From Fimbriimonadaceae bacterium (GTDB taxonomy: Bacteria > Armatimonadota > Fimbriimonadia > Fimbriimonadales > Fimbriimonadaceae): DNA of 64,000 nt. Where the stretch lies: assembly GCA_019694835.1 (NCBI GenBank), contig JAIBBE010000001.1, forward strand, positions 1 to 64,000. Reading direction: 5' to 3'. Position 1 is the stretch's first letter, and every line of letters starts with the position of its first letter. Positions 2,054-64,000 of the stretch are shown one piece after another. A program made the position numbers and the translations under genes. The notes under the pieces are model-generated. The model did not search any database, had not been told where the DNA came from, and was given only the letters and a program-made list of their open reading frames with translations.

Positions 2054-5000
2054 TGCTCGACCGCCTATTACACTTCAGCCTCACTCAGAGGTTTCTTGTC
2101 ATTATCGGAACCATCCTCCTGGTTGGGTTCGGCTTGGTTTCGTGGCGGCAGCTCAACCTCGACGCAGTCCCAGACATCACGACCAATCAGGTCGCCATCA
2201 ACACCGAAACGGGCGGGATGGGCCCGGAAGAGGTGGAAAAGCTGGTCACCTTCCCCATCGAGACGGCGATGGGAGGGATTCCCGGTGTGACCCAGGTCAG
2301 GAGCCTCAGTCAATACGGGCTCTCGCAAGTAACTGTTACCTTTAGGGACGAGGTCGACACCTACTTTGCCCGGCAACTGGTGAGCGAGCGGCTCAACAAT
2401 GTCAAAGAGCTTCTGCCCACGGGAATCGAATCACCACAAATGGGGCCCGTATCCACGGGCCTTGGCGACATTTATATGTACGCCCTGGAGTCGAAGACGC
2501 GACCACCGATGGAGCTTCGGAGCTTGCAAGACTGGTTCATATCGCCACAGCTGCGGACCGTTGCGGGTGTAGCCGAAGTCAACTCGGCGGACGGTAGCGT
2601 CAAGCAATACCAGGTCGTCGTTCGACCCCGTGCGTTGCTGGCCCGTGGCATCGCCGTGGACGAGGTTGTCACCGCCCTTCAAAAGAACAACCAAAACGCC
2701 GGGGGCGGCGTTTTGGAGCAAAACGGCGAAAGGGTGCTTATCCGTTCCGTCGGAATGGCGACCACGATGAGCGACATCGAACGCATCGTCGTTAAGTCTG
2801 AGAGCGGGGTTCCGGTTCTCATTCGTGATGTTGCGGATGTCAGATTGGGAATCCCGACCCTGACTGGAATCTCCACTAAGGATGGTAAGGAGTCGCTGCT
2901 TGGCATCGTGATGATGCTAAAGGGGGCAAACGGCCGCGAAGTTGCCAAGGCGGTCGATGACCGAATCCAAGAAATCAAGGCTCAACTTCCCGGAGACGTC
3001 ACCCTCACGACGACCTACGACCGGTCACACCTTGTCGACGACGTTCTACACACCGTTGCCAAGAGCTTGCTGGAAGGCGCAGCTCTCGTTATCATCGTGC
3101 TCGTCCTGTTGCTGGGCAACGTTCGGGGTGCCATCGTCGTGGCACTGGCAATACCGCTGGCGATGCTTTGTGCCGTCATCGGAATGAACCGCTTTGGCAT
3201 CTCTGGCAACCTGATGAGTTTAGGGGCCATCGACTTCGGCCTAATTGTGGACGGAGCCGTTGTCATGATTGAAAACGCCGTCCGGCGACTTGCGGAAGCG
3301 AGAGAACACAAGGGAATAACTCTGACGCGCAAGGAAGTCAGGCATTCGGTGTGGGAATCTGCGCGAGAGGTGGCCAAGCCAACGGCATTTGCGGTGACCA
3401 TCATCACCGTTGTCTACCTGCCGATTCTCGCCCTTGAAGGGACCGAAGGCAAGATGTTCAAGCCGATGGCCTTCACGGTCGTGTTCGCACTCATAGGTGC
3501 TCTCCTGTTGACGATGACACTGGTTCCAGTATTGGCGAGCTTGTTTCTGTCGGGGGACACCAAGGAAGGCAACAACCCGGTGATGAGCCTTTTCAGCCGC
3601 ATCTACGCTCCCGCGCTCAGCTTCTCGCTCCGTGCGCGAGGCGTCGTTATCGGTGGAGCCCTTGTACTGCTGGCAGTCTCAGGATTGGTGTTTTCGAGAT
3701 TGGGTTCGGAGTTCGTGCCCCAACTCGACGAAGGCTCGATTGTGATACAGCCCGTACGAGTCCGGACAGTCGATGCCGAGCAGACCGTCAAGTTGGTCAC
3801 AGCTTTCGAAAGGAAGGTGCTTGAAGTTCCAGAGGTTTTGACGGTCTTTTCAAGGAGTGGCACCCCCGAGGTGGCGACAGACCCAATGCCGCTTAGTCTG
3901 ACGGATAGTTTCATCATGCTCAAACCGCGCGACCAGTGGCGAAAGGGTCTGACAAAGGAGGGGCTTGTCGAAGAGCTTGAGGCCAAGGTCGCCGAGGTTC
4001 CGGGCCAAGGCTACAACTTCTCGCAACCCATTCAGATGCGCTTCTCCGAGTTGGTATCTGGAGTCAAGGCCGACGTCGGCATCAAGGTATTCGGTGAAGA
4101 CCTCAAGGAGCTGAAATCCAAAGCGGATGAGATTGCTGCGGTCATGCGGGACCTTCCAGGTGCGCAGGATGTCGAAGTCGAGCAGGTCGATGAGGTACCG
4201 GTTCTTCAAATCGACATTGACCGCGACGCGATTTCCCGACTAGGCATCAATATTGATGAAATTCAGGAACTAGTCGCGACAGCGCTCGGTGGCGAGCCCG
4301 TTGGGCAAATTATCGAGGGAGACAAGCGATTTGCTCTAACGGTGACGATGCCCAATGAACTTCGGAACGACATCGACGCTATTAAAGGCATGCTCGTGGA
4401 AACTCCGGATGGGGGAGGCGTCCCCCTAAGCTCGGTCGCGCACATCGACAACGTGCCCGCTCCGGCTCAGATTTCCCGAGAGATGGGTAAACGACGGGTC
4501 GTCGTCCAACTCAATGTGAGAGGGACCGACCTGGGCACGTTCGTTGCCAAGGCGCAACTGGCAATCAAAGAAAGGGTCAAACTCAAGGAGGGTTACTACA
4601 TCACGTGGGGCGGCCAGTTTGAGAACCTGCAGCAGGCTTCTCAGCGACTGACTCTCGTTGTGCCGGTTGCCCTTGCGTTGATTTTCATTCTTCTCTTCTC
4701 AACATTTGGGTCGCTCAAGCAGGCGATTCTCATCTTCACCGGCGTCCCCCTCGCAATCACTGGGGGCATCTTGGCGCTTGCCATGCGGAGCTTGCCATTC
4801 AGCATCACAGCAGGCATAGGCTTCATAGCATTGTCTGGCGTGGCAGTGATGAACGGCGTCGTCATGGTCTCGGCAATCAACCGACTGCGCACCGAGGGGC
4901 GGACGGTTGCTGATGCCGTTCGAGAGGGCGCGACCGAACGCCTACGCCCTGTTCTGATGACCGCTCTTGTCGCCGCGCTTGGGTTCATTCCAATGGCCCT

Positions 5001-50989: not shown

Positions 50990-51001
50990 GAACCTAAATA
51001 G

Positions 51002-51046
51002 TGGCTGCCGCAGTAGGACTCGAACCTACGACCCGCTGATTAACAG
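51002..51046 (-). other. tRNA-Asn(GUU) 3' fragment, attachment site (att) of island 2
   Basis: On the minus strand, from 51046 down: anticodon loop CTGTTAA with anticodon GTT, stem TCAGC, variable loop, T stem-loop CGTAG GTTCGAG TCCTAC and acceptor strand ending GCCA. The 5' stem GCTGA and all earlier tRNA parts are missing; the sequence to the right is unrelated. It is therefore the distal repeat produced by integration in a tRNA-Asn gene. The integrase begins 160 bp to the right. Confidence 0.87.
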
Positions 51047-51205
51047 TTATTGGTTTTGATGTTCGCAGCTTCGCGCAATCAATCGCCGTCTAGTCCAATT
51101 TGAACCTGAAATGTTCGTGCGTGTTCGTCGGCACCTGGTACAATCCTTCCCAGAACTCTTCCCACTGGAATCATCTGGGAAGAATTATTTAGGAGGAACA
51201 CGAGG

Positions 51206-52405
51206 ATGGCGGCAGGCGGGTCTCGGGGCAGAAGGGCCAACGGCGATGGGTGGGTGTACAAGGATGGAAACAGCTACCGAGTAAAGGTGGCGGCTGGGGT
51301 TGATCCAGTGTCGGGGAAGATCCGATATCGTTCCGCTAGGGCGAAATCACACGCCGAAGCACTCGACGTCTTGAGACGCCTCCAGTCAGAGAAGCTGACT
51401 GGCAAGCTCATGCCCTCCGCCAACCGCACCCTCGGCGGCTACCTCGAAGGCTGGCTGGAGCGAAATGTCAAACCCAACCGAGCCCCCAACACCTATCGGC
51501 AATATGCTTGGATCGTAAACTCCCACGTCATTCCCCACCTTGGCAAGAGGGACATGGACAAGGTGACCAGGCCCGATGTCCAGGCGCTGCTCGCGACCAA
51601 GGCTAAACAGAAGGTCCAGCCTCGCTCCGGAGCAGGATCACCAATCGACAAGACACTGTCACGCTCTACGATGCGGCTTATCCGTGCCATCCTGCATGCC
51701 GCCTATCAGGACGCCATAAGGGACGGCCTAACCGCCCGTAATCCAGTCCAGCATGTGCAATTGCCGCCGGAAGCTCGAAAACCCCCTGCCTTCCTCGATC
51801 CGGACCAGGCAGCGGCGCTCATGAAGGCAGCTCGCGACTCCGATCTGGCCGATCTGTTCCGGTTCATGCTCTCGACCGGGACGCGCATTGGAGAGGCAAC
51901 GGGCGTCCGATGGCAAGATCTTGATCTTGAACGGGGCTTTGTCCGAATCAGCGGCCAGCTCCAACGAATCGATGGGAAACTGACCTATCGCCCTGTGACG
52001 AAGACCAACCAGGATCGCGCGATTCCCATTTCGCCGACATTGGTCGAAGCCTTCAGAACTCTCAGGATTGCCCAGGATGTGAACGACGTGCGCGACGCCG
52101 ACGGGATCGTCTTTCTTAATGCGGAGGGCCGGAAGCTCGACCCCAAGTTCGTGTCGAAGCGGCTCGCCAAAGTTTGTCAAGCAGCCGGAGTACCGGTCAT
52201 TTCTCCCCACAAGCTCCGACATACTGCCGCCACCGTGGCTCTCGCAGAGACGGGCGACCTGCACGGCGTTCAGAAGATGCTGGGCCATCAGCAGGTCGCA
52301 TTGACCGCGAATCTCTATGGGCATGCGACTGCAGAGACGATCAGATCTGTCACGAACTCGATCGAGAAGTCGATTAGCTCTTTGACCCCGATCAGTGATC
52401 CATAG
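51206..52405 (+). CDS. Tyrosine-type site-specific recombinase (island integrase)
   Basis: 399 residues with TTTAGGAGGA upstream of the ATG. An AP2-like arm-binding domain (GDGWVYKDGNSYRVKVAAGVDPVSGK, ~14-39) and a SAM-like core-binding domain (YLEGWLERNVKPNRAPNTYRQY) precede the catalytic domain. Catalytic residues: Arg in STGTRIGEATGVRW (~227), HKLRHTAAT (~334), LGHQQVALTANLYGH (~355, Tyr ~369). Complete triad, so it is likely active. It belongs to the phage/ICE integrase type found in Actinobacteria and Firmicutes as well. The attachment fragment lies just upstream. Confidence 0.92.
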   Translation: MAAGGSRGRRANGDGWVYKDGNSYRVKVAAGVDPVSGKIRYRSARAKSHAEALDVLRRLQSEKLTGKLMPSANRTLGGYLEGWLERNVKPNRAPNTYRQYAWIVNSHVIPHLGKRDMDKVTRPDVQALLATKAKQKVQPRSGAGSPIDKTLSRSTMRLIRAILHAAYQDAIRDGLTARNPVQHVQLPPEARKPPAFLDPDQAAALMKAARDSDLADLFRFMLSTGTRIGEATGVRWQDLDLERGFVRISGQLQRIDGKLTYRPVTKTNQDRAIPISPTLVEAFRTLRIAQDVNDVRDADGIVFLNAEGRKLDPKFVSKRLAKVCQAAGVPVISPHKLRHTAATVALAETGDLHGVQKMLGHQQVALTANLYGHATAETIRSVTNSIEKSISSLTPISDP

Positions 52406-52559: not shown

Positions 52560-53450
52560 CCAGGCCCTTAGCTCCCCGCCGCCAGAGCGGGCAATCAAAC
52601 CCGGTAAGAGGGTCGTCTTCGCAGCCCACGTCATCGACCAGGCCCAGCGCAATCGCTTCATCATCCCGCCAGCAGTGACCAGTCCCGACCGCCTTCACCT
52701 GAGCCGTAGCTGCTGGCGCGCCCGCGAGACACCCGCCGCCGCGAAGTCGCCAAACACGGCGTCGACCTCGCGCTGAGCATCCGCCATCGGCTCTTCGTCG
52801 ACCGGCTGTCCCTGCGCCCACTTGCCCTTGATTTCGCCCGACGAAATCAGCGTCAGCGAATAGCCCTCCATCGACCACCGCTCCACGTCGTCGACTAGCA
52901 GCGTGCAGACCCCGACTTGCGCGTACGGCGACGCTACAATGGCCGAGCACTGTGAAGCCACCCAGTAGGCAGCCGACGCGCAAATCGAGGAAAGATCGGC
53001 CACCATCGTCTTCTGGGCCGCCATCCGGACATCGTCCGCCAAGCACCCCAGCCCCGAAGACTGTCCGCCCGGCGAGTCAATCAGCAACACGATCTCAATG
53101 ACCTGGTCGTCCACATCGCCATGCGAACCTGCCGCCGCGCAAGGATCGTCGAGGTCCCGCTGGCCATCGACGGAAGGCGTTGAAGCAGTAGGCGCGAGAG
53201 TTCGGTGAACGCGACGCCGTCGATGATCGCGTAAGCCTCCGGTCATCCGCCCGAGGCTGGTGGGCGCCAACCGCGAAGGCATCCAGCGACCGGCGGCCCC
53301 TGCTCATCGACGTAGGCTTCAAGCCCGACCACACCGAGCATCAACTCCCCCGGAACAGACCGGTAAGGCTTTGAGCTGAGCCAGCCCATACCGCTCATCG
53401 ATGCACCAGACCCGGTCCATGGCAAGCGCCCAAGCTGCTTTAGAAGGCAT
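52560..53450 (-). pseudogene. Decayed prophage S49 (SppA/capsid-type) protease
   Basis: The pieces lie in different frames. From the ATG at 53450 (MPSKAAWALAMDRVWCIDERYG), the remains continue as AYAIIDGVA near 53220 and VIEIVLLIDSPGGQSSGLGCLADDVRMAA near 53050. KTMVADLSSICASAAYWVASQCSAIVASPYAQVG, with the catalytic Ser-containing ASAAYWVAS block, comes next. A final fragment is DEAIALGLVDDVG near 52640. At least three frameshifts separate them. Such proteases belong to phage head modules, so this is a prophage relic inside the island. Confidence 0.75.
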
Positions 53451-53472
53451 GAAGCTAAGCAACGATTAGTTC

Positions 53473-54312
53473 TTAGCCCGGGGAATCGAATGGGTCGGTC
53501 CAATCCCATGGCCCGACTTTCTCAACGTCTGGATGGCCCAAGCGCACCGAATCAAGGAAGTACTCTATCTCTCGATTTGCGAGGCTTTCGCCCTCAAAGT
53601 GAACCGGGGAGTCGGTAAACACGCATTCCTGGGCATCACACAATCTTTGGTGCAATGCCACTTCGAGAACTGGAAGGCATCCAGGCACCCCACAATACGC
53701 AATTCCGAATAAGATGTGATCGTATTTTAGTGCAAACTTGTATCTTGGGCAAAGGTCCAAGGGTACGGTTCCCGGTGGCACATGACCAAGCCAATTTCCG
53801 CATTGGTAAACAGCCATTCCTTTGGTAGATGACTCACCGACAAAAGCAACCGTTTGCTTCGGCCAATTTACTCGCTGATAGGCTTGTCGGCAATGCTGCC
53901 TTGGAACCTCGGAAGCTCGGTACTTATGATTGATCTTTAACTTACCTGCAGCGCAGGCTTTGTATAGAATCCACCACGATAACTCGGACCTGACGCAATC
54001 TGGAAGGTCGATAAGTACAGCCTCTCTTCTTGCCAGTCTCACGATAGTGTCTTTGAGGTTATTCTCGAATACGCTCATCCAGCCGTTATTACAGACCTTG
54101 CAGATATCGGCAGCCACGGTCGCTTGCGGAGGTAAAGCCGGCAGATCCGTGAACTCTCCGGTGGCGCCGCTATAGTGCCAGCATGGCAAGTCACTGGACC
54201 TGTGACCCAGTGAGGTTATTAGAGCATCGCCAAAGATGTGCTCCTTCGCTCGTGGGACGCCCTTGCCCCCGAGAATACGTCCGCAAAAGGTGCACTTGCA
54301 TCTCAACTTCAT
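53473..54312 (-). CDS. HNH-endonuclease-like zinc protein
   Basis: 279 residues. N-terminal Cys/His pattern CTFCGRILGGKGVPRAKEHIFGDAL (Cys pair then the EHIF block of HNH-like folds), followed by ADICKVCNNGWMSVFE (second Cys pair with Asn-Asn). This CxxC...EHxxP/F...CxxCN arrangement is the outline of an HNH nuclease with structural zinc, though the metal-binding His of the nuclease core is not fully clear. The C-terminal ~180 residues are unfamiliar and Cys-rich. Base composition looks lower in GC than the core genes. It could be a stand-alone defence nuclease or an island cargo gene. Confidence 0.72.
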   Translation of the reverse strand: MKLRCKCTFCGRILGGKGVPRAKEHIFGDALITSLGHRSSDLPCWHYSGATGEFTDLPALPPQATVAADICKVCNNGWMSVFENNLKDTIVRLARREAVLIDLPDCVRSELSWWILYKACAAGKLKINHKYRASEVPRQHCRQAYQRVNWPKQTVAFVGESSTKGMAVYQCGNWLGHVPPGTVPLDLCPRYKFALKYDHILFGIAYCGVPGCLPVLEVALHQRLCDAQECVFTDSPVHFEGESLANREIEYFLDSVRLGHPDVEKVGPWDWTDPFDSPG

Positions 54313-55183: not shown

Positions 55184-55327
55184 TCATCGGCAGGCCCTCG
55201 GCGGCTCTTTAGGGTCAGGAGCAAGATTGTCCAAGAAGGACCCGAAGTGATCCTGTCGCTCCGTCAGCGACTCGCCAAACACGCTCTGGTTCGGACCCAA
55301 CCAAGTCAGACTAGAAGTCGTAGGCAC
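55184..55327 (-). CDS. Possible 47-residue protein after the DUF499 gene
   Basis: GTG start one base after the DUF499 stop (TGAgGTG), with GGAGGAG of the DUF499 tail 4 bp upstream as ribosome site. The 47-residue product begins MPTTSSLTWLGPNQSVFGES and continues LTERQDHFGSFLDNLAPDPK. It is acidic with an ordered look but matches nothing I know. The terminator follows about 60 bp later. Could be a small regulator or just a chance frame. Confidence 0.45.
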   Translation of the reverse strand: MPTTSSLTWLGPNQSVFGESLTERQDHFGSFLDNLAPDPKEPPRACR

Positions 55328-55328
55328 C

Positions 55329-58300
55329 TCACTCCTCCTCGAAGTCGAATGAGTCGAACTTTAGAGTGCGGCAGTTCTCGCTGACGATTCGGACGACGTT
55401 GTCCGCGTAGCCGTCACCGCATTCAGCGTCAACCTCGATCGTGATCCGGACCTCGCTTCCCAACACGCTTGCTAGGTGCTGCGCGACCTCTCGCGAGACA
55501 TTGCCCGCCAAGGTCGAGAGATTGCCTGAGTTGGCCCGTATCGTGGCGTGGAACCGCTTGTTGCGTGTTCTGGGGGCGACCGTTCCCGTCGGAGTTGGGC
55601 CACCCAACATCCCGCCGTAGTCGGAGAGTGGTCGACCGGCATCCGCAATCTGCGTCGTCGTAAGCGGAGGCGTCGCAGCAACGGCTTGGTCGATGAGCGG
55701 CTCGGCGATGTCGGGTTTGACGAGATAACCCATGAGTGCCCGAGGACCGTCGAGCAGAATCCCCATGCGGAGTTTCTCGAATGCCTTCGTGTCCGGGTCA
55801 TAACCGTCCGCGTAGGCGAGGCCTTGAGTACGGTTAACTGCATCGCGAACGGCATCGAAGAGGACATCGTCATTGACCAATCGATAGAGGTAAGGATAGC
55901 TGGCATAGTAGCTAACCAATTGGTCAACAGAGACCATGCCGCCAGAATCCCACAGCGGAACACGCTCGATGTCCCGAATCAGTAGATTGCCGCCGAGCTT
56001 CCGAACAAGGTGCTCCGGTTCCAGCTTACGAATGACCCTTATGGCCAAGTTCTCATCGCCACCGGAAACATGCAGAGCGGTCCAGCTTAGCGCTTGCTGA
56101 GGACCGAGTTGAGTTGGGACTAGAACGTGCTGATAAGCCTCGTTGATACGGCCGGTTACCGTGCGGTTCCACTGCTGCGCGCTCGAAAGTGCCTGATCAC
56201 GGTTCGCTTTGTCAAGGTCGAGTTTGTCGTCCTGGACCTCGGTCACAATCGAGTCCCAGGCTAGGTATTGGCGCACGGCTCCTTCGAGGTCCGTCCACCT
56301 TGCCTCATCGCACGCCAAGAACACGAGCCGGTTGCGATGCGATCTTGGCGCCGAGCCCCGGTACTCAAGAATGTCTTTCGCTTGACCGATGGCGTCGGAA
56401 TCAGTGCGTCCACGCTTGTGCAGGTGCGAGGGACCGAGGACGACCAGTCGCAGTTCACGATCGTCGGGGATGTCGCTGGACGCAACATCCGCATGAACGC
56501 CACCGAATTCACCTCGGAGGCGTACTGCCGTCATGTCCTTGAGTCGCCGCACTACCTCAGCGATGACAGCATCTTTGGACATTGCATCCGCGCGATCCTG
56601 AGCTTCACGGTTGATGCTGGCCTGAGTGTCGTACCAGAAGCGCGTGGCATCGGCATAGAGGAAGAGGGTCTTTTGCCGAAGACGGCCCAACGCGTCACCG
56701 AACGTCGCAATCGTTTCTTTCGGTTGCACGCAGCCAAGGCGAACGTGCTTGTCGTCAATGCCGCGTCCAGCTGCTCCACGAGTAGGAGCCGACCCCAAGA
56801 AGATCGTACGCGCGACGCGCCTGGATGCCGAGAATCGGCCGAAGGTCGCGGCAAACTCGCCGTCGAGCTTGAGGGGCACCGAGTTCTCACCGTCAACATC
56901 TCGGTCAATCACGCCAGCCCAATTCTCCGGGAGGTAACGGATGATCTCGGATTGCACGGTTGCGTCAGCAATGGGCACCATGGCCGGCATGATCAAAGCG
57001 CTCTGATCGTTGTTCTTCCACAGCGAGTGAATGACGGAGGCCATGAGGCGTAGGACACCACGCGTGCGCTGGAATTTCTCCAACGACGACCAATCTTCGT
57101 AGAGCCGGTCAAAGAGCTCGGGATGGATCGGATACGCCGCCTTCATTCGGCGCTCGTACTCTCCTTCACGGCACTCACTCGGAAACTCATTCGGATTTGC
57201 TTTGTAGAACATTGCGAATTCTCGAATGACGGCATCGCGTGCGCCGACTAGATCACCGGGGATGGGCTGGAAGAGGCGGCGCCGGACGATCTCAAAGCTC
57301 TCGTCACTCGTGGCGGGCCTCCACACGAGGTTCGATCTGCCGACCGCCGCCTTGAGGCGATCCAGCGCTGCCTGACCGGCATCGTCTCCCGCCTGCGTGG
57401 ACGGCAGGAGTGAGCCATCAGCTCCGACAGACGCGGGAATGCTGATGCAGACGAGAACATTCTTTGCGCGGCGAGCGGCTTCGCACAGCGTCTGCGCAAA
57501 CGTGAACTGCGTATCAAAATCACCCGCGGGCAGCATGTGCTTGCGGTCGAAGAGCTGCCTCGCGTAAGCGACCCACTCATCAATGAGGATCAATGAAGGC
57601 CCAGCCGCGCGGAACAGCTCGTCGAGGAGGTCCCCCGGGTTGGTCGAGGTTTCATCCGCCTCGCGAACGATTTCATATCCGGTGCGACCCGCAAGCTGCC
57701 AGGCCAATTCGCCCCATAGTGTGCGCACGACCGTGCCGTCGTCTTTGGTCAACGGGCTGCCTGGACGAAGTGCGGTTCCAACGATCACCGCACGACGGAC
57801 GGTCGGCACATCGGTGACGCCAGCTTGATTAAAGAGCTCGTCGACGCCCGGCAAGCTGGATGGTTTGGCTTGACCTCCGAACAAGTGATACAGCGCTAAC
57901 ATCGAGTGGGTCTTGCCACCGCCGAAGTTGATCTGCAATTCGACAACCGGGTCACCACCGACAGCGGTCAGCCGGTTCAGTCCGTTCTTGAGGAGCTCCT
58001 TGAGGCCCTCAGTGAGATACGTGCGACCGAAGAAGTCGATTGGTTTAAGGTACTCGTCGCTGCCTTGACCAAGGTACACCTGCCAGAGGTCCGCCGCAAA
58101 CTCGGCTTGCTGGAACGTGCCTTGCGCAACATCTTGGTGCGGAATCACGACTTCCCGCCACGGACGCAGTCCCGGAACTTCAAGGCCGGTCAGAGGCTGA
58201 TTCGCAGTCCGCCGTTCCTCTTTCTTGCGCTCGGTGTCGAACTGCATGCGCATCACTTCGAGCTTTGATGACTCGACCTTTTCTGCCTCAGGAGATTTGA

Positions 58301-58643
58301 TGGCTTCGAGCAGTTTCTGAATGTCGATCAGGCCCGCAATCGTATCGTCGACCGAGATCATCGGCTCGTGGGCGTGCTTGTTTCGGACGACCCGGACGTC
58401 GTGAGCGCGACTTCGGACATCTTTTGTCAGAACTTGGTCGAAGACGTCGTCCCAGTTGTTGATCATCGTGTTGACCAGCCGCTGTGGATCCAATAATTGA
58501 GTGGTCCCCAAATGGGCGTCAGCCAGGTAGCGGCCCCAGTCGTCCGCATACACATCCCGCAACTCTTGCTCGATGTACCGAGCGAGTTCTGGAGCCATGA
58601 TGTCAAGGGCTCTGCCGATTCTTTCTTTGTTGCTGATAGCCAT
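55329..58643 (-). CDS. DUF499 ATPase with N-terminal Swt1-like HEPN domain
   Basis: 1104 residues from the ATG at 58643; an upstream extension to 58820 overlaps the nucleotidyltransferase gene. N-terminal ~120 residues: GRALDIMAPELARYIEQELRDVYADDWG and DVRVVRNKHAHEPM, with an R-x4-H (RNKHAH, ~89) HEPN ribonuclease motif. The ATPase core has Walker A INFGGGKTHSM (~240) and Walker B SLILIDEWVAYAR (~352). DUF499 proteins are large AAA-like ATPases found beside DUF1156 methyltransferases in anti-phage regions. The gene starts 1 bp after the nucleotidyltransferase stop, so it is in the same operon. Likely acts on nucleic acid, with the HEPN domain as an RNA effector. Confidence 0.88.
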   Translation of the reverse strand: MAISNKERIGRALDIMAPELARYIEQELRDVYADDWGRYLADAHLGTTQLLDPQRLVNTMINNWDDVFDQVLTKDVRSRAHDVRVVRNKHAHEPMISVDDTIAGLIDIQKLLEAIKSPEAEKVESSKLEVMRMQFDTERKKEERRTANQPLTGLEVPGLRPWREVVIPHQDVAQGTFQQAEFAADLWQVYLGQGSDEYLKPIDFFGRTYLTEGLKELLKNGLNRLTAVGGDPVVELQINFGGGKTHSMLALYHLFGGQAKPSSLPGVDELFNQAGVTDVPTVRRAVIVGTALRPGSPLTKDDGTVVRTLWGELAWQLAGRTGYEIVREADETSTNPGDLLDELFRAAGPSLILIDEWVAYARQLFDRKHMLPAGDFDTQFTFAQTLCEAARRAKNVLVCISIPASVGADGSLLPSTQAGDDAGQAALDRLKAAVGRSNLVWRPATSDESFEIVRRRLFQPIPGDLVGARDAVIREFAMFYKANPNEFPSECREGEYERRMKAAYPIHPELFDRLYEDWSSLEKFQRTRGVLRLMASVIHSLWKNNDQSALIMPAMVPIADATVQSEIIRYLPENWAGVIDRDVDGENSVPLKLDGEFAATFGRFSASRRVARTIFLGSAPTRGAAGRGIDDKHVRLGCVQPKETIATFGDALGRLRQKTLFLYADATRFWYDTQASINREAQDRADAMSKDAVIAEVVRRLKDMTAVRLRGEFGGVHADVASSDIPDDRELRLVVLGPSHLHKRGRTDSDAIGQAKDILEYRGSAPRSHRNRLVFLACDEARWTDLEGAVRQYLAWDSIVTEVQDDKLDLDKANRDQALSSAQQWNRTVTGRINEAYQHVLVPTQLGPQQALSWTALHVSGGDENLAIRVIRKLEPEHLVRKLGGNLLIRDIERVPLWDSGGMVSVDQLVSYYASYPYLYRLVNDDVLFDAVRDAVNRTQGLAYADGYDPDTKAFEKLRMGILLDGPRALMGYLVKPDIAEPLIDQAVAATPPLTTTQIADAGRPLSDYGGMLGGPTPTGTVAPRTRNKRFHATIRANSGNLSTLAGNVSREVAQHLASVLGSEVRITIEVDAECGDGYADNVVRIVSENCRTLKFDSFDFEEE

Positions 58644-58644
58644 G

Positions 58645-59199
58645 TTATTCTCGGTTCTCCGGTATGGACCTGAGTCGGTCCGCGAATATCTGGAACTTCC
58701 CCGACTCGCCGGAACCAATGCACCATCGCTCAATGAGGGCAAGGTCAACCGGATGACGGGAAGCGACGGCCAACGCCTGTTCCAGCGCGCTGAAATCGCG
58801 ATAGAAGAGGAACCAGGCAAGTCGGTCCCGAACGCAATCGGTGGCGGTCAGGATGTGGAGGAGCCGGTCACCTTCTCGCAGGGTGTCCCAGGTCGTGATC
58901 AACTCTTCACCAATTGCCAGGGGGCCGGTGGGGAACTCGACGGTCAAGTGAGTTGAAGGATGCGCATACGACTGCCCATCGAGGACGAATCCAAGATCAA
59001 GCAGCGGCTGGGCCGAGGGCACGTCGGTTGTGGACCAAAACTCGAAGATGAAGTCGAGATCGCGGGACTGATAGGCTTCAGGTGCGTACACGGTCGCCGC
59101 GCCACCTCCGGAGAGGATGGCGGTCGTCCCGGCTCGATGAAGCGCGCTGCAGACGATGAACGCGAGTTCGCGGAGGGTCGTTGTCGGGCCAATGGTCAT
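58645..59199 (-). CDS. Nucleotidyltransferase-fold protein
   Basis: 184 residues from the ATG at 59199, overlapping the winged-helix gene by 4 bp. The fold core LSGGGAATVYAPEAYQSRDLDFIFEF (~29-54) resembles the GG-x-A-x-x-x-Y...S-x-D-x-D motif of DUF6036/AbiEii-like nucleotidyltransferases. A later block is ATDCVRDRLAWFLFYRDFSALEQALAVA. In known systems such proteins, paired with a winged-helix partner, act as abortive-infection toxins or as target-modifying enzymes. Here a winged-helix gene stands directly upstream, as in AbiE-type pairs, but the order within a DUF499 operon is unusual. Confidence 0.8.
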   Translation of the reverse strand: MTIGPTTTLRELAFIVCSALHRAGTTAILSGGGAATVYAPEAYQSRDLDFIFEFWSTTDVPSAQPLLDLGFVLDGQSYAHPSTHLTVEFPTGPLAIGEELITTWDTLREGDRLLHILTATDCVRDRLAWFLFYRDFSALEQALAVASRHPVDLALIERWCIGSGESGKFQIFADRLRSIPENRE

Positions 59200-59534
59200 A
59201 GGGCCTTGCCCGACCTTCTCGGTCGCCGCCGCTTCTCGGTAAGCTGCTTCTGCAAAGGTAGATCGAGGCTTCCCAGTCTGTCGAGCAGGGCCTGCAATTC
59301 GGGGAGAGCGGGATACCGAGGATTTAGCCGGACCCGACGGGTCTTGCCTTCTTCGGCGGCTACCACGATCCCCGCGATTTCGAAGCTCTCGATCGCCGCT
59401 TGAACGCGGCTGAGACTCTTTCCAATGACTTTCGCCACCTCTGAGGCATGAGTCTCGCCAAGCATGCCAATCACGAGCAATGTGCTCGTTCGAGAAGCCG
59501 TGCCAAAGAGTCCAAGGGGTATACGTGTTGCCAT
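59196..59534 (-). CDS. Small winged-helix DNA-binding protein
   Basis: 112 residues. Winged helix: LLVIGMLGETHASEVAKVIGKSLSRVQAAIESFEIAGIVVAAEEGKTRRVRLNPRYPALPELQALL, with the recognition helix in SLSRVQAAIESFE and the wing in EGKTRRVRLN. ArsR/MarR-like in shape but without metal ligands. It is the first gene of the operon and begins 14 bp from two palindromic repeats, so it probably represses its own promoter. Basic tail EKRRRPRRSG may aid DNA or RNA binding. Confidence 0.85.
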   Translation of the reverse strand: MATRIPLGLFGTASRTSTLLVIGMLGETHASEVAKVIGKSLSRVQAAIESFEIAGIVVAAEEGKTRRVRLNPRYPALPELQALLDRLGSLDLPLQKQLTEKRRRPRRSGKAL

Positions 59535-59547
59535 CGCTCAAAAATCT

Positions 59548-59585
59548 ACCCGTTTTTCGGGTGATATCACCCGTTTTTCGGGTGG
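59548..59585. promoter_or_regulatory. Paired palindromic operator of the winged-helix operon
   Basis: Two copies of acccgtttttcgggtg(a/g), at 59548-59564 and 59569-59585, 21 bp apart (two helical turns). Each is a CCCG-ttttt-CGGG palindrome. They lie 14-51 bp upstream of the winged-helix start codon, in the only intergenic gap of the locus. Confidence 0.75.
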
Positions 59586-59609
59586 TCATTCTCGGGCATG
59601 TATGCCTAG

Positions 59610-60830
59610 TCATAGCTCCAGTTGCCTCGCGTCAGGCCCTTGCGCGGCGACGTACTCATCGAATACCCCCTTGAGGTTGGGGAATAAGCGCTGGGCTTTC
59701 TCCAAGAAATCTTCGTCCTGGAGCGACTCATAGGTCACGCCTCGAAAGATGACCCTTGACTTCATTTCACGGACGTGCTGATCGACGCTTCCAAAGATCT
59801 TGGTGAGCTTCTCCGTAAGGAAGTCGGTCGCACCAAGGTCGGGTTGCCACTTCCTTTGCCTCAACAACTCGTCGGGCGGCTTGCGTTCGAGTTCTGCGCC
59901 CAATGAGCGAGCAAGACCGGCAACGCTTCGGTCGATGCTCTCTTGGAGTGCAGCCCGCACCTCGTCCCGGTACTGATCAAGATGCAGGTCGAAGGTCTTC
60001 AGGGCCGTGTCAAGCTCATCACGGTCGCGCCGAAGAACGATCTTTCCGTATCCGGCCAAGGTGTGCAGGTACTTCTTCTCAATCTGTTGTCGATGTTCGT
60101 CGAGTGCCTTCTCGGCTGACTTTAGGGGCCGCTCGTCACCAATGAGCTCGTAGTCGGGTTTCAGGCGTTTGCGACTGTCTTCGTCTTCGATGATCGCAAA
60201 AAAATCTGAAGGAAGGGTGACCTTCTTTCGGGACAGCTTGCAACCGCTGACTTCCCATTCGACGAATTCGAACTGGGCATTGAAGACCCGAACTTGTCGA
60301 GCCACCTCGAAACGAAGGGGCGGATTTCCGGCAAGATCCTGCCTTACGGCGTCGATCTCGGTTTGGGAGATGCCCTCCATGCCAACCGTCTGGATAAGGC
60401 GACCGGATCGCCCGGCCCCGAGGTCGTCCAGGATCTCATGAGGGTCTTGGCCAACTTTGAGGGTGACGCCATTGACCGAACGAGTCCCTTCATCCGCCAC
60501 GAGTTTCGGAATCGGGGCGAACGCGATGACATCATCGTCGGCGACCAAAAGCCCAATGCGCAAGCCGGGCTCGCTGCAGATCAGGAGGCCCTCCGATACA
60601 CAGGAGGCGCGTAGGAACTCTACCGCCTCGAACGAACCGTAGCCCAGTCGGAAGACCTCCGGATCGAGGTCGAGCACCACCGAGACTCTATCGACACCGA
60701 GACCAGTCACAGCCTCGGAAAGCGCAGAGGCAAGGGCCATGTCGAGGCTTGGCGCGGCGTACGCGACCCGTGCCTGCGCATTCAAAACGAGATCGCACAG
60801 AGCGGTTTCGTCAATGGCAGTGATCGCCAC
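59610..60830 (-). CDS. PLD-like protein of the DUF1156 locus, function unknown
   Basis: 406 residues, starting 3 bp after the DUF1156 gene. The N-terminal ~110 residues (VAYAAPSLDMALASALSEAV ... VSVVLDLDPEVFRLGYGS ... PGLRIGLLVADDDVIAFAPIP) have the strand-helix rhythm of a PLD-family domain without the HKD catalytic motif. The C-terminal ~200 are helical and charged (SAEKALDEHRQQIEKKYLHTL; ALKTFDLHLDQYRDEVRAALQESIDRSVAGLARSLG). I do not recognise a named family; the PLD resemblance is tentative. Operon position links it to the methyltransferase. Confidence 0.72.
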   Translation of the reverse strand: MAITAIDETALCDLVLNAQARVAYAAPSLDMALASALSEAVTGLGVDRVSVVLDLDPEVFRLGYGSFEAVEFLRASCVSEGLLICSEPGLRIGLLVADDDVIAFAPIPKLVADEGTRSVNGVTLKVGQDPHEILDDLGAGRSGRLIQTVGMEGISQTEIDAVRQDLAGNPPLRFEVARQVRVFNAQFEFVEWEVSGCKLSRKKVTLPSDFFAIIEDEDSRKRLKPDYELIGDERPLKSAEKALDEHRQQIEKKYLHTLAGYGKIVLRRDRDELDTALKTFDLHLDQYRDEVRAALQESIDRSVAGLARSLGAELERKPPDELLRQRKWQPDLGATDFLTEKLTKIFGSVDQHVREMKSRVIFRGVTYESLQDEDFLEKAQRLFPNLKGVFDEYVAAQGPDARQLEL

Positions 60831-60833
60831 GCG

Positions 60834-63830
60834 TTAAACCTCCAACTCCAATTGACCGGTTCCGTCGACCGCGACCCACGAGGCACCATCGCCTTGCGAC
60901 TTCGTCTCGATGTCGCTCCAACTCGATACGAGCGCGTTGTAGACGCGGGCTTCGGCGGACCACTTCTTCCGATCGCAGATCGCGTAGAGGCGATAGGCAA
61001 GCTCACGGGCGCGGTCGATGTCGAGGTCGGGTTTGGTCTCGCGGAAGCGGCGCATGAGGCGCGCCGCTGCGTCCTCGCCGCCATCGTCGAGCGCGCGGCA
61101 GAGGTATTGGGTGGCTTCCCAGATCGCGGTACGGCGATCTTTGGCGGGGTCGTAATCGGCGGGCAGTTCGTCGCGCGAAAGCAGTTCGAATCTCCCGCCG
61201 CCGAGCCGGACGAAACCGAATTCGAGCATCGCATCCGGGGCGGTGCCCCTCGCGCGGGCGATGGTATCGGCATCACCGTAGGGACCGGCTGCGAAGCCAT
61301 ACTGCGAAAACCACGTGACGCCAAACAGGGTCTCGGGGTCGTACCAGCCCTCCTGGGCTTCCATCAGTTCATCCAGAGCTTGGTTGATGAGCTGAAGCGC
61401 GGTGCGAACCGTCATGGGTTCGCCGCTCGCTTCGAGTACCTCAGCGTACCGGGTAAAGATCGCCATCCCCGGCCCGATCGACGCTTGGGCCAGGTCCACC
61501 GGGGCGATGTTGGCTTCTTGAAGGTGGGCGATGGCGACCGGCAATTCCGCCTTCAGGGCTCCCACGAATTCTGTCCGCGAAACGCTCGTTGCGGTCGTTG
61601 CACGGCGTCGGCAGACGAGGACAATGCTGGAAGCGAGCGCGTTCGTACCCGACCCGATCATCCGATTGCCCAGTTCCGTGCGCATGGGCCAGGTTCCGCT
61701 CAACGCGAAGCCGGCTCGGAGCACCGCGTCCAGGAACGTCTCCCACCCCGTGCTCGACGTGCCCGTTTGTGACTCGGTTTCAGACTGCTTGAAGGCGTAG
61801 TAAATCGTGACCGGGAATCCCGGATCAGCTTGGTCCGCGATTCGGCCCATTGCCTTCGTCATCCCGTTCAGGAAGAATGTCTCGGCCTGATCCTTACCGC
61901 CGTGGCGATAGGGCGTCGCCACCAGTTCCTCCGCCTTGGGGACGGCTAAGGTCGCAAAGAGGTCGGGATAGATGTTCTGGAGTGATCGGCGCAGCCAGAC
62001 GTAAAAGAAGTCTGAAAGGTCCGCGTAACCAATGTTGTCGTAATAGGGAGGGTCCGTGGACACGATCTTCGCCACGCAGAGTTCCTGGCTAGAGGCATTC
62101 GCCTGGACGGCGCTCCCCTTGTTCGTCGAAGATGTTTGCGGAAAGGCGAGCTCCTGTGGCTTGATGATCTTCTCAAGGGCCGCGTTGTAATTAGCTAGCC
62201 ACTCTCCGAACAGATTTAGTTCAGCATAGTCCCAGGTCATCGGGATGGCTTGCCTCGCAAAAGTGTTTCTGGTCGCTTGAACGACCGGAATCCAACCGCA
62301 AACCGTGGAGTTAAAGTCGGTGCACCTGCTTACAACGAAGCTAAGATACACGCCTATGGCATCAGCATATGCCGTTGCCCCCGAACCGCCGTCGCGGAGG
62401 GGGGTGGGGGCCTGCCCTGAGCATGCCGAAGGATCGTCGGAGAGGCCGGCGGCGAGCGCGTCGCGACGCACCTCCTCCCGCGCCTCTTGCACCAAGTCGG
62501 AGAACGTCGTCAACGCCACGAGCTGGCGGGGTGTGAAGAGGGCAGCAAAGGTCAGCAAGCCGTAATTGGGCGTCTTGAAGTCCCGAGGATTGGTCGGTAG
62601 CGCGATGTCGGGACTCCACCCGGGTTGAGCGGTTCGTGCCAGAGACTCCTGGTCCGCTGACGGCGATAAATAGACCCGCCCTCTATCGCCCTCCGCGACG
62701 ATCGCCATCAGTCGCGCACCCATTCGACCTTCTTGCCCCTCCGACCGAATGTGGTCATAGCTAACCGGCGTACTCGACATCAGGCAGGTGAAGGCTGCTC
62801 GCTTGCCAGCAGTCGTTCCGAGCTTGGCAGCCTCAACGTCCCTGGGCCTCCCAATCCTCACCATGAACCGATAACCATCCCCCTCGATTACTGGCTCGAC
62901 GTAAGCCTCCTTGTTCGCCTTGGTGGAAAGCAAGAACGACGAGACGAGCGGCACGTCGACGTGCGCGAAAGCAGGGTTCGGGCTCTTGACCGTTCGTGCC
63001 CACAGCCAGGCGATCACCGTCAACTCGCGACCCAGGTACGGCTGCAAGTCGGGCCGCTCGGCGACCATCTCGGCCGTGACCTTGATCTTCGGATAGAGGT
63101 GCCCGATCCGCTTTTCCGCTTCGTCCCGCATCCACTGGCCGTAATAGCGAACATCATCCGCCAGCCCCTGCGCCCCCTTCCACGGCTTGCCCATGGCAGC
63201 CGTTCTACGCGCCTCCGGATTGACCGGGGGCCTCCCCGCAAACTTGGGTGGAATCTCGATCATCGCCTTGTTGATCAGCACCGCCACCGGGTTGAGGTCG
63301 CTTGCGTAAGCTTCGAGCCCGAGCCTCTGCGCTTCCAGCGGTATCGATCCACCGCCCGCAAAGGGGTCGTGAAGGGGAGGAGGATCGCCGCCACAACTGA
63401 GCCGGATCAGTTCCCGCGCCGGTTCGAGCACCGCTTCGTTCGTCGTATTCTCCCACTGGACGAGCTGCTCGATGAGCGTGAACAGCCGGTACCGCCGCTC
63501 TCTCGCGAGCTTCTGCTCCTTGGCCCCATCTCCTTCAAGCGGCTTGCCGTCCGCCCCCACAATCGGCTCGTCGACAAGGTGTCGATACTTGGCATGCAGC
63601 GGCAGTTCGTCGATCCGCTTTAGGTAGTCCTTCGGCGCACCCTCCTCCCCCGGATCGTCGACGATCTGGGCAAAGATCACGGCGCGACACGCCGCCAACG
63701 GTCGCCGCGCCCACCATAAATGTAGCGTGGAAGGATGCCCATGCCGAATCGACTTCTCCCGCGCCGAAGCGATATTGACTTCTTCCAGCGGCAGCGCGAC
63801 TTCGATGAGTTTCTTGCGAGGTTGATTCAT
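60834..63830 (-). CDS. DUF1156-domain DNA methyltransferase
   Basis: 998 residues. The N-terminal DUF1156 block KKLIEVALPLEEVNIASAREKSIRHGHPSTLHLWWARRPLAACRAVIFAQIVDDP (~6-60) is unmistakable. SAM-binding DPFAGGGSIPLEAQRLGLEAYASDLNPVAVLINKAM lies at ~155-190 and the catalytic motif DPPYYDNIGYADLSDFFYVWLRR at ~593-615 (DPPY of adenine/N4-cytosine methylases). A repeat-derived peptide sits at ~465-482. The ATG overlaps the upstream partial gene by 4 bp. Such methylases occur in DISARM-like and other defence islands with a DUF499 ATPase. No restriction nuclease of standard type is present. Confidence 0.9.
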   Translation of the reverse strand: MNQPRKKLIEVALPLEEVNIASAREKSIRHGHPSTLHLWWARRPLAACRAVIFAQIVDDPGEEGAPKDYLKRIDELPLHAKYRHLVDEPIVGADGKPLEGDGAKEQKLARERRYRLFTLIEQLVQWENTTNEAVLEPARELIRLSCGGDPPPLHDPFAGGGSIPLEAQRLGLEAYASDLNPVAVLINKAMIEIPPKFAGRPPVNPEARRTAAMGKPWKGAQGLADDVRYYGQWMRDEAEKRIGHLYPKIKVTAEMVAERPDLQPYLGRELTVIAWLWARTVKSPNPAFAHVDVPLVSSFLLSTKANKEAYVEPVIEGDGYRFMVRIGRPRDVEAAKLGTTAGKRAAFTCLMSSTPVSYDHIRSEGQEGRMGARLMAIVAEGDRGRVYLSPSADQESLARTAQPGWSPDIALPTNPRDFKTPNYGLLTFAALFTPRQLVALTTFSDLVQEAREEVRRDALAAGLSDDPSACSGQAPTPLRDGGSGATAYADAIGVYLSFVVSRCTDFNSTVCGWIPVVQATRNTFARQAIPMTWDYAELNLFGEWLANYNAALEKIIKPQELAFPQTSSTNKGSAVQANASSQELCVAKIVSTDPPYYDNIGYADLSDFFYVWLRRSLQNIYPDLFATLAVPKAEELVATPYRHGGKDQAETFFLNGMTKAMGRIADQADPGFPVTIYYAFKQSETESQTGTSSTGWETFLDAVLRAGFALSGTWPMRTELGNRMIGSGTNALASSIVLVCRRRATTATSVSRTEFVGALKAELPVAIAHLQEANIAPVDLAQASIGPGMAIFTRYAEVLEASGEPMTVRTALQLINQALDELMEAQEGWYDPETLFGVTWFSQYGFAAGPYGDADTIARARGTAPDAMLEFGFVRLGGGRFELLSRDELPADYDPAKDRRTAIWEATQYLCRALDDGGEDAAARLMRRFRETKPDLDIDRARELAYRLYAICDRKKWSAEARVYNALVSSWSDIETKSQGDGASWVAVDGTGQLELEV
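62392..62446. repeat. Palindromic-repeat insertion in the DUF1156 gene
   Basis: A GC-rich stretch with cctgccctgagcatgccgaa, like the widespread CCTTCGGCATGCTCAGG-type repeats. Read in frame it adds DDPSACSGQAPTPLRDGGSG to the methyltransferase. It lies in a variable-looking part between the SAM and DPPY motifs. Confidence 0.6.
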
Positions 63831-64000
63831 GCGATCGCCTCCCCGTTGCAGAGCTTCACGATTGAGGCGTGGATCCGTTCAGCGCGATTTGCCAAGAACA
63901 TGCGGTAGTCGCCCGCCACCATGTCATCGAACGAGATCAAGTGGCTCTCTAGCCGCCGGCGTATTTCCGCTTCGCCGTGAACAGACCTGTCTCGCCTTTC
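63827..64000 (-). CDS. Partial protein upstream of the DUF1156 gene
   Basis: The frame enters from the right edge and its TGA overlaps the DUF1156 ATG (ATGA), so it is the preceding gene of the same operon. The visible 57 residues contain IRRRLESHLISFDDM, DYRMFLANRAERIH and ASIVKLCNGEAIA. They are helical and basic. I do not recognise the family from this piece. Confidence 0.78.
   Translation of the reverse strand, partial: ERRDRSVHGEAEIRRRLESHLISFDDMVAGDYRMFLANRAERIHASIVKLCNGEAIA

Follow-up and report, generated by a model that had tools for sequence, protein, structure and literature searches.

The right-hand end of a 64,000-nucleotide stretch from a Fimbriimonadaceae bacterium (contig JAIBBE010000001.1, positions 1 to 64,000; the window) carries a closely packed set of minus-strand genes organized around a DNA methyltransferase and an AAA+ ATPase of the Hma (helicase-methylase-ATPase) type. 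The set consists of five complete genes and the end of a sixth and, in the order of transcription, is composed as follows.

63827-64000, minus strand: 3' end (57 codons) of the gene that precedes hmaB, from the list of open reading frames (ORFs)
60834-63830, minus strand: hmaB, DUF1156 adenine-type DNA methyltransferase of 998 amino acids (aa) with a DPPY motif (PADLOC, Pfam)
59610-60830, minus strand: P3, 406 aa, GTG start, with an N-terminal phospholipase D (PLD) fold and a degenerate HKD motif (RxG-x4-D), followed by long helices
59548-59583, unstranded: predicted composite operator ACCCGAAAAACGGGT-GATATC-ACCCGAAAAACGGGT, 36 bp, assigned from a spacing grammar common to cassette relatives
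59196-59534, minus strand: winged-helix protein (wHTH), 112 aa, a likely autorepressor and possible antitoxin (sub-threshold HTH matches and adjacency to the nucleotidyltransferase gene)
58645-59199, minus strand: nucleotidyltransferase (NTase), 184 aa, with an intact GG-x14-DxD...E/D active site
55329-58643, minus strand: hmaC, AAA+ ATPase of 1104 aa with DUF499 and an N-terminal HEPN domain (PADLOC, Pfam)
58299-58613, minus strand: HEPN_Swt1 domain of HmaC (residues 11-115; Pfam 1.5e-18), with the Rx4H motif RNKHAH at residues 87-92

The junctions are, in order, a 4-bp ATGA overlap between the upstream ORF and hmaB, a 3-bp gap between hmaB and P3, a 75-bp gap between P3 and the wHTH gene, a 4-bp overlap between the wHTH and NTase genes, and a 1-bp gap between the NTase gene and hmaC; no member of the set lies in 55184-55329. 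The overlaps and short gaps, and the single 75-bp gap with its two operator-like palindromes, are thus as described in the first-pass annotation, which had counted six or seven genes where there are five complete and one partial.

HmaB matches the PADLOC HmaB model PDLC00660 with 1397.8 bits over residues 5-980 and Pfam DUF1156 at 1.8e-26, and HmaC matches the PADLOC HmaC model with 990.4 bits over residues 159-1103, with both DUF499 and HEPN_Swt1 matched in Pfam. The RNKHAH motif is intact, and among 52 aligned HEPN-type HmaC proteins, the window's included, the arginine is kept in 48 and the histidine in all; PADLOC and Pfam therefore agree with the initial description of an anti-phage-type methylase and a DUF499 ATPase with a HEPN motif. 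With hmaB before hmaC on one strand and a HEPN-DUF499 fusion, the pair resembles the operons named Hma (PMC8565338) and later reclassified as type-1 DUF499-centred BREX-related (BR) systems, often HEPN-fused (PMC12839542), as these are set out in the accessible parts of those papers, and a HEPN-DUF499 fusion beside restriction-modification (R-M) genes is noted in an earlier one (PMC3710099). Judged by sequence similarity, the methylase and ATPase are the published Hma/type-1 BR core, from which the window differs in having three extra genes between hmaB and hmaC. The NCBIfam 'antiphage' equivalogs for DUF499 and DUF1156 score 153 of 1200 and 120 of 1000 bits, far under their cut-offs, placing the locus outside that equivalog subgroup, and the HmaC sequence profile identified no related PDB chain at E 0.1.

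The wHTH and NTase genes form a cassette that also occurs by itself. A scan of genome contigs with the single NTase sequence confirmed no relative, and a scan with an alignment gave 442, and the 80 best were retained. A wHTH gene adjoins the NTase relative in 88 of 94 loci, and relatives of HmaB, HmaC, and the PLD-like protein are absent by tblastn from 84 NTase loci, each between 3.3 and 20.6 kb long. The cassette is found alone in many phyla, on plasmids, and on viral contigs, nine close downstream genes tested among its relatives include no common partner, and 3 of 12 genomes tested code for both the NTase and HmaC, at separate places. These distributions indicate that the wHTH-NTase pair is an independent module. 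The wHTH itself has sub-threshold TrmB/MarR matches in Pfam and a PADLOC match to PDC-M05A (1.5e-6). The predicted NTase fold is MenT1-like, and a sequence profile built from 44 relatives matched no PDB chain at E below 0.08; assignment as a CD-NTase/CBASS enzyme was rejected, as MenT and ANT head the structural matches and CdnE ranks low. In two relatives from records titled Fimbriimonadaceae and Chthonomonas (L006, 938-2086, and L008, 10553-11689) a gene with a sub-threshold THUMP-like match lies about 4 bp past the cassette and is perhaps a local third partner.

The 75-bp gap contains two perfect 15-bp palindromes that together make one 36-bp composite, the only one in the window. When up to 80 bp upstream of the wHTH gene was searched in 78 relatives and compared with 500 Markov shuffles, ACC-N9-GGT was present in 39 (shuffles: mean 0.9, maximum 4), GGT-N6-ACC in 31 (mean 1.0, maximum 5), and both together in 26 (mean 0.04, maximum 2); other spacings occur in 0 to 4 relatives. 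Of 260 fetched loci, 21 carry the full ACC-N9-GGT-N6-ACC-N9-GGT arrangement. Nineteen of these belong to the 84 NTase loci and have it at the wHTH start or a little before; the remaining two (L104 and L133) are one single Hma-junction place. The arms vary and the spacing is constant, as expected for a repressor and operator that co-evolve, and the conserved spacing bears out, at the level of sequence, the first-pass description of the palindromes as operator-like. Because this grammar is found with cassette relatives, the operator belongs to the cassette, and the palindromes were rejected as regulators of the whole Hma operon since they travel with the cassette.

The Hma junction at L133 offers a parallel case. 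Here a wHTH fused to an NTP_transf_2-type NTase is followed by a SAV_6107-like HEPN gene and then by HmaC, which has no HEPN_Swt1 domain and within which the contig ends. The L133 wHTH shares 27 of 94 residues with that of the window (E 1e-7 in a two-sequence set), and the composite operator lies at 3292-3327, at the start of the fusion gene; no composite appeared in five rounds of shuffling all 136 Hma stretches. The two loci together suggest two arrivals of one regulatory grammar at this junction, each time with a different NTase.

Of 291 genomes in the phylum of a Chthonomonas record (G003, Armatimonadota), 65 have HmaC, as do 114 of 400 in the phylum of an Anaerolineales record (G294, Chloroflexota); 80 high-scoring HmaC places were fetched from these two phyla. 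A methylase lies upstream on the same strand in 65 of the 80, and exclusion of two with the methylase more than 9 kb off leaves 63, in 24 of which the hmaB-hmaC junction is longer than 250 bp. Long junctions are present in 21 of 44 HEPN-type loci versus 3 of 19 others (Fisher p 0.023, uncorrected for kinship and with one row set by hand). Among 34 junction ORFs, Pfam identifies NTP_transf_2 in 7, with other matches to HEPN-like families, DUF433, DUF5615, PIN, OLD/AAA-type ATPases, DUF559, and PDDEXK_3. NTases are present in 7 of the 24 long junctions (L125, L133, L222, L227, L228, L229, which is under the Pfam cut-off, and L231) and are paired with a HEPN gene in L125, L227, L228, and L231, and also in L133. 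The hmaB-hmaC junction thus often takes cargo. The available text of PMC12839542 describes in general terms how BREX/BR operons can contain auxiliary effectors, among them HEPN with MNT.

At one such junction (L123, 6641-8760) there is a two-ORF pair whose second ORF has a sub-threshold PIN match, and which we take to resemble VapBC; the HmaC just past it is broken by a stop codon.

P3 is a second kind of addition. It belongs to the PLD superfamily by fold, so the PLD-like assignment of the 406-aa protein holds, but the catalytic HKD motif is missing: the histidine position is R or Q and the lysine position G, C, or A in 35 of 35 rows. The reading of P3 as an active nuclease was rejected for want of the HKD. 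P3 has no Pfam family at E <= 0.1, and its sequence profile, too, matched no PDB chain at E below 0.08. Of nine other contexts of P3 relatives, six are operons of the Hma, BREX-1, DISARM-type, or another methylase-helicase kind; no defence neighbour lies beside the relative in L154 and L163, and in L162 the sole defence-like neighbour is a type I restriction enzyme-like ORF. Relatives number 5 in 392 genomes of the phylum of a Phycisphaerales record (L055), 0 in 368 genomes of the phylum of L028, and 0 in a set of 9 genomes, all lower bounds as few first-look candidates were scored per genome; two are in plasmid records and none in phage records. By these sequence contexts P3 is not tied to Hma, and it is most likely an accessory that binds DNA or a partner without catalysis and that BREX-1 and DISARM-type operons would also use. 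One relative, annotated only as hypothetical, is encoded on a plasmid of Acinetobacter towneri, where it lies between the pglX and pglZ genes of a BREX-1 operon (L153, 8977-10233) and overlaps both by a few bases.

The gene set lies on an island whose left end is marked by two features.

51206-52405, plus strand: tyrosine integrase of the island (Phage_integrase, 3.1e-31)
51000-51047, minus strand: tRNA-Asn(GTT) 3' end, probable attachment-site remnant and island left end (48-bp identity)

Three fetched loci contain intact tRNA-Asn(GTT) genes whose 3' ends match these 48 bp exactly, and ARAGORN identifies no intact tRNA in the window. The remnant beside an integrase supports the tRNA-integrated island of the earlier description, the other end of which is beyond the window. 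ARAGORN was also run on the paired tRNA-Asn copies of two genomes: in G125 some 23 kb separate an intact copy from a bare 3' end, and in G155 an intact copy lies about 22 kb from a near-identical piece in which no tRNA is called. The 3' ends of tRNA-Asn look, from these sequences, like a recurrent integration site in the phylum Armatimonadota (the window and L256-L259). Several genomes (for example G125, G155, G156, G009, and G110) have two matching tRNA-Asn 3' copies 6 to 39 kb apart. The gene to the left of the remnant is 69 to 78% identical over most of its length to Armatimonadota genes, which makes an armatimonadote the likeliest host, and is presumably a molybdopterin oxidoreductase, formate dehydrogenase-like. 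ORF stretches at 52695-53509 resemble, we assume, a decayed phage S49/ClpP-type protease, which suggests prophage remains on the island. A minus-strand gene at 53473-54312 codes for a 279-aa protein with paired cysteines (CxxC) that has no family in Pfam, PADLOC, or NCBIfam; we presume that it could be an HNH-type nuclease.

The reading that we favour, at a probability of roughly 65%, is that this is an Hma defence operon on a tRNA-Asn island, with the PLD-fold accessory P3 and a self-contained wHTH-NTase cassette inserted between hmaB and hmaC. Support at the sequence level extends to the gene identities, the active-site residues, the conservation of the operator, the independence of the cassette, and the use of the junction. 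From what is known of the family, HmaB would mark self DNA, HmaC together with the expected HmaA would scan and restrict unmarked DNA, and the HEPN RNase on HmaC would act as a suicidal back-up. Given the conserved spacing, the composite operator is probably the binding site through which the wHTH represses its own promoter, and with the hmaC start 1 bp past the NTase stop, part of hmaC transcription may come under the wHTH repressor. The NTase, nearest in fold to the tRNA-modifying MenT toxins, could serve as a second abortive layer or an addiction element that disturbance of the operon would release.

Several observations weigh against this reading. No HmaA is present in the window, which ends 170 bp beyond the start of hmaB. 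Among the 65 fetched loci that have HmaB before HmaC, 43 have HmaA farther upstream on that strand (gene layouts cover 36 of the 43), so that it is expected beyond base 64000; the 57-aa ORF end before hmaB is unlike HmaA and has no PADLOC match, and hmaB may be preceded by an additional gene or by an HmaA with an unusual end. This ORF end has a sub-threshold Pfam TraY match (E 0.03) and a best blastp match of E 1.2 among the ORFs of fetched Hma loci, and its position is that expected of HmaA or of hmaA-hmaB cargo. The NTase has no Pfam family at E <= 0.1, and its family is present in 0 of 81 distinct Hma stretches outside the window, so that a role for it in Hma rests on the window and the related L133. 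The exact ACC-N9-GGT is missing in 39 of the 78 relatives, and no sigma-70-like promoter was identified in 58500-60900. The junction counts come from the highest-scoring HmaC stretches, some of them near duplicates, and at least 4 of the 24 long junctions (L132, L213, L232, and L238) hold no convincing gene by reading. Nor is the hmaB-hmaC slot unique, as the hmaA-hmaB junction carries cargo too, with ORFs in 17 of those 36 loci, matches to Schlafen, DarT, Macro, SMODS-type NTase, and GmrSD, and one MNT-HEPN pair (L218).

It is unlikely, if worth serious consideration, that the cassette plays no part in defence, as a neutral, mobile addiction pair that settled by chance in a permissive junction; its solitary occurrence across phyla, plasmids, and viral contigs, the assorted nature of the nine close downstream neighbours tested, and the unrelated small modules in the hmaB-hmaC junctions of other Hma operons are all consistent with this, whereas the tight frame and spacing (genes overlapping by 4 bp, hmaC only 1 bp away) and the presence of the same wHTH/operator grammar at the L133 junction speak against it. 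By analogy with MNT antitoxins that adenylylate HEPN toxins, the NTase might instead be a lock on HmaC that modifies its HEPN domain and holds the RNase off until infection. The NTase gene directly precedes the HEPN-DUF499 gene, both active sites are intact, L133 combines the same junction and operator grammar with a wHTH-NTase, a separate HEPN, and an HmaC without HEPN_Swt1, and NTase genes recur in long junctions. Yet there is no HEPN among the nine downstream genes tested for stand-alone NTase relatives, the NTase fold is nearest MenT, four other junction NTases (L125, L227, L228, and L231) bring their own HEPN, and 23 of the 44 HEPN-type junctions are 250 bp or shorter, such that HmaC needs no NTase there; such a lock is accordingly rated improbable.

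The palindromes could alternatively be an intrinsic terminator or attenuator after P3, since the second palindrome with its T-run scores terminator-like on the minus strand, a point that also counts against the operator; this is very unlikely, as relatives keep the ACC/GGT spacings of 9 and 6 with varied arms just before the wHTH gene, none of which a terminator needs. Least credible is the proposal of the first-pass annotation that all six genes are one indivisible, undescribed defence system, to which only a very small chance is assigned: the genes are tightly packed on one strand, but NTase relatives are found without Hma and P3, P3 relatives accompany BREX-1 and DISARM-type genes, and both the NTase and P3 are missing from 81 distinct Hma stretches. 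The proposal fails on two counts, in that the methylase and ATPase are a core already published, and that the wHTH/NTase pair and Hma occur apart, with 84 NTase loci lacking Hma genes and 81 Hma stretches lacking the NTase.

Comparison with known systems gives partial likenesses to the cassette. As in AbiE, it is bicistronic, with the DNA-binding gene first, the NTase second, and inverted repeats in front (PMC7319586, PMC3985639), and AbiEi-type antitoxins use inverted repeats, of which Rv2827c has two sets (PMC7319586); however, the NTase has no AbiEii (DUF1814-family) Pfam match, the wHTH has no AbiEi family match, and at only 112 aa it lacks the second antitoxicity domain of AbiEi described in the available text of these papers. 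The AbiE-like label is therefore apt for the gene arrangement and its inverted repeats, with the AbiE families unmatched. The predicted MenT fold makes tRNA nucleotidylation a putative activity of the NTase (PMC10435456, PMC11375011), although identity to MenT is 12% and MenA1, as presented in the accessible parts of those reports, has no wHTH. Like the MNT-HEPN (type VII) systems (PMC7641770, PMC11586414), the window has an NTase gene 1 bp before a HEPN-coding gene, and MNT-HEPN pairs are cargo in the hmaB-hmaC junction of other Hma operons, but here the HEPN is part of HmaC and the NTase has no NTP_transf_2 match. PrrC in a type Ic R-M operon is likewise a suicidal RNA-directed enzyme inside a methylase-based operon, whereas the window has a two-gene cassette with its own operator (PMC3710099, in the part of the text consulted).

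The operon can thus be named: it is a known system with an already published core, and the new cargo can be separated from that core. The suggestion that the arrangement may be undescribed stands for the two added kinds of part in a cargo-taking junction and falls for the core; a literature search, mostly of open papers and without supplements, found no published description of a wHTH-NTase cassette in Hma or of P3 as a shared accessory. An NTase family that has no Pfam name yet carries a conserved wHTH/operator grammar across phyla is a testable object, as is a PLD-fold accessory common to Hma, BREX-1, and DISARM-type operons, and the methylase/ATPase junction recurrently takes toxin-antitoxin-like modules, with an NTase in 7 of the 24 long ones. 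The way in which a suicidal HEPN within a defence ATPase is held in check thereby becomes open to direct test. A comparison of gene orders (operator, wHTH-NTase fusion, free HEPN, and HmaC lacking HEPN_Swt1 in L133; operator, wHTH, NTase, and HEPN-HmaC in the window) prompts the bolder and doubtful idea that Hma operons recruit repressor-controlled NTase cassettes at hmaB-hmaC to control the HEPN RNase that follows, with the NTase locking the HEPN chemically and the wHTH setting hmaC dosage. If this were true, an MNT-HEPN-like switch would be part of a methylation-based defence system.

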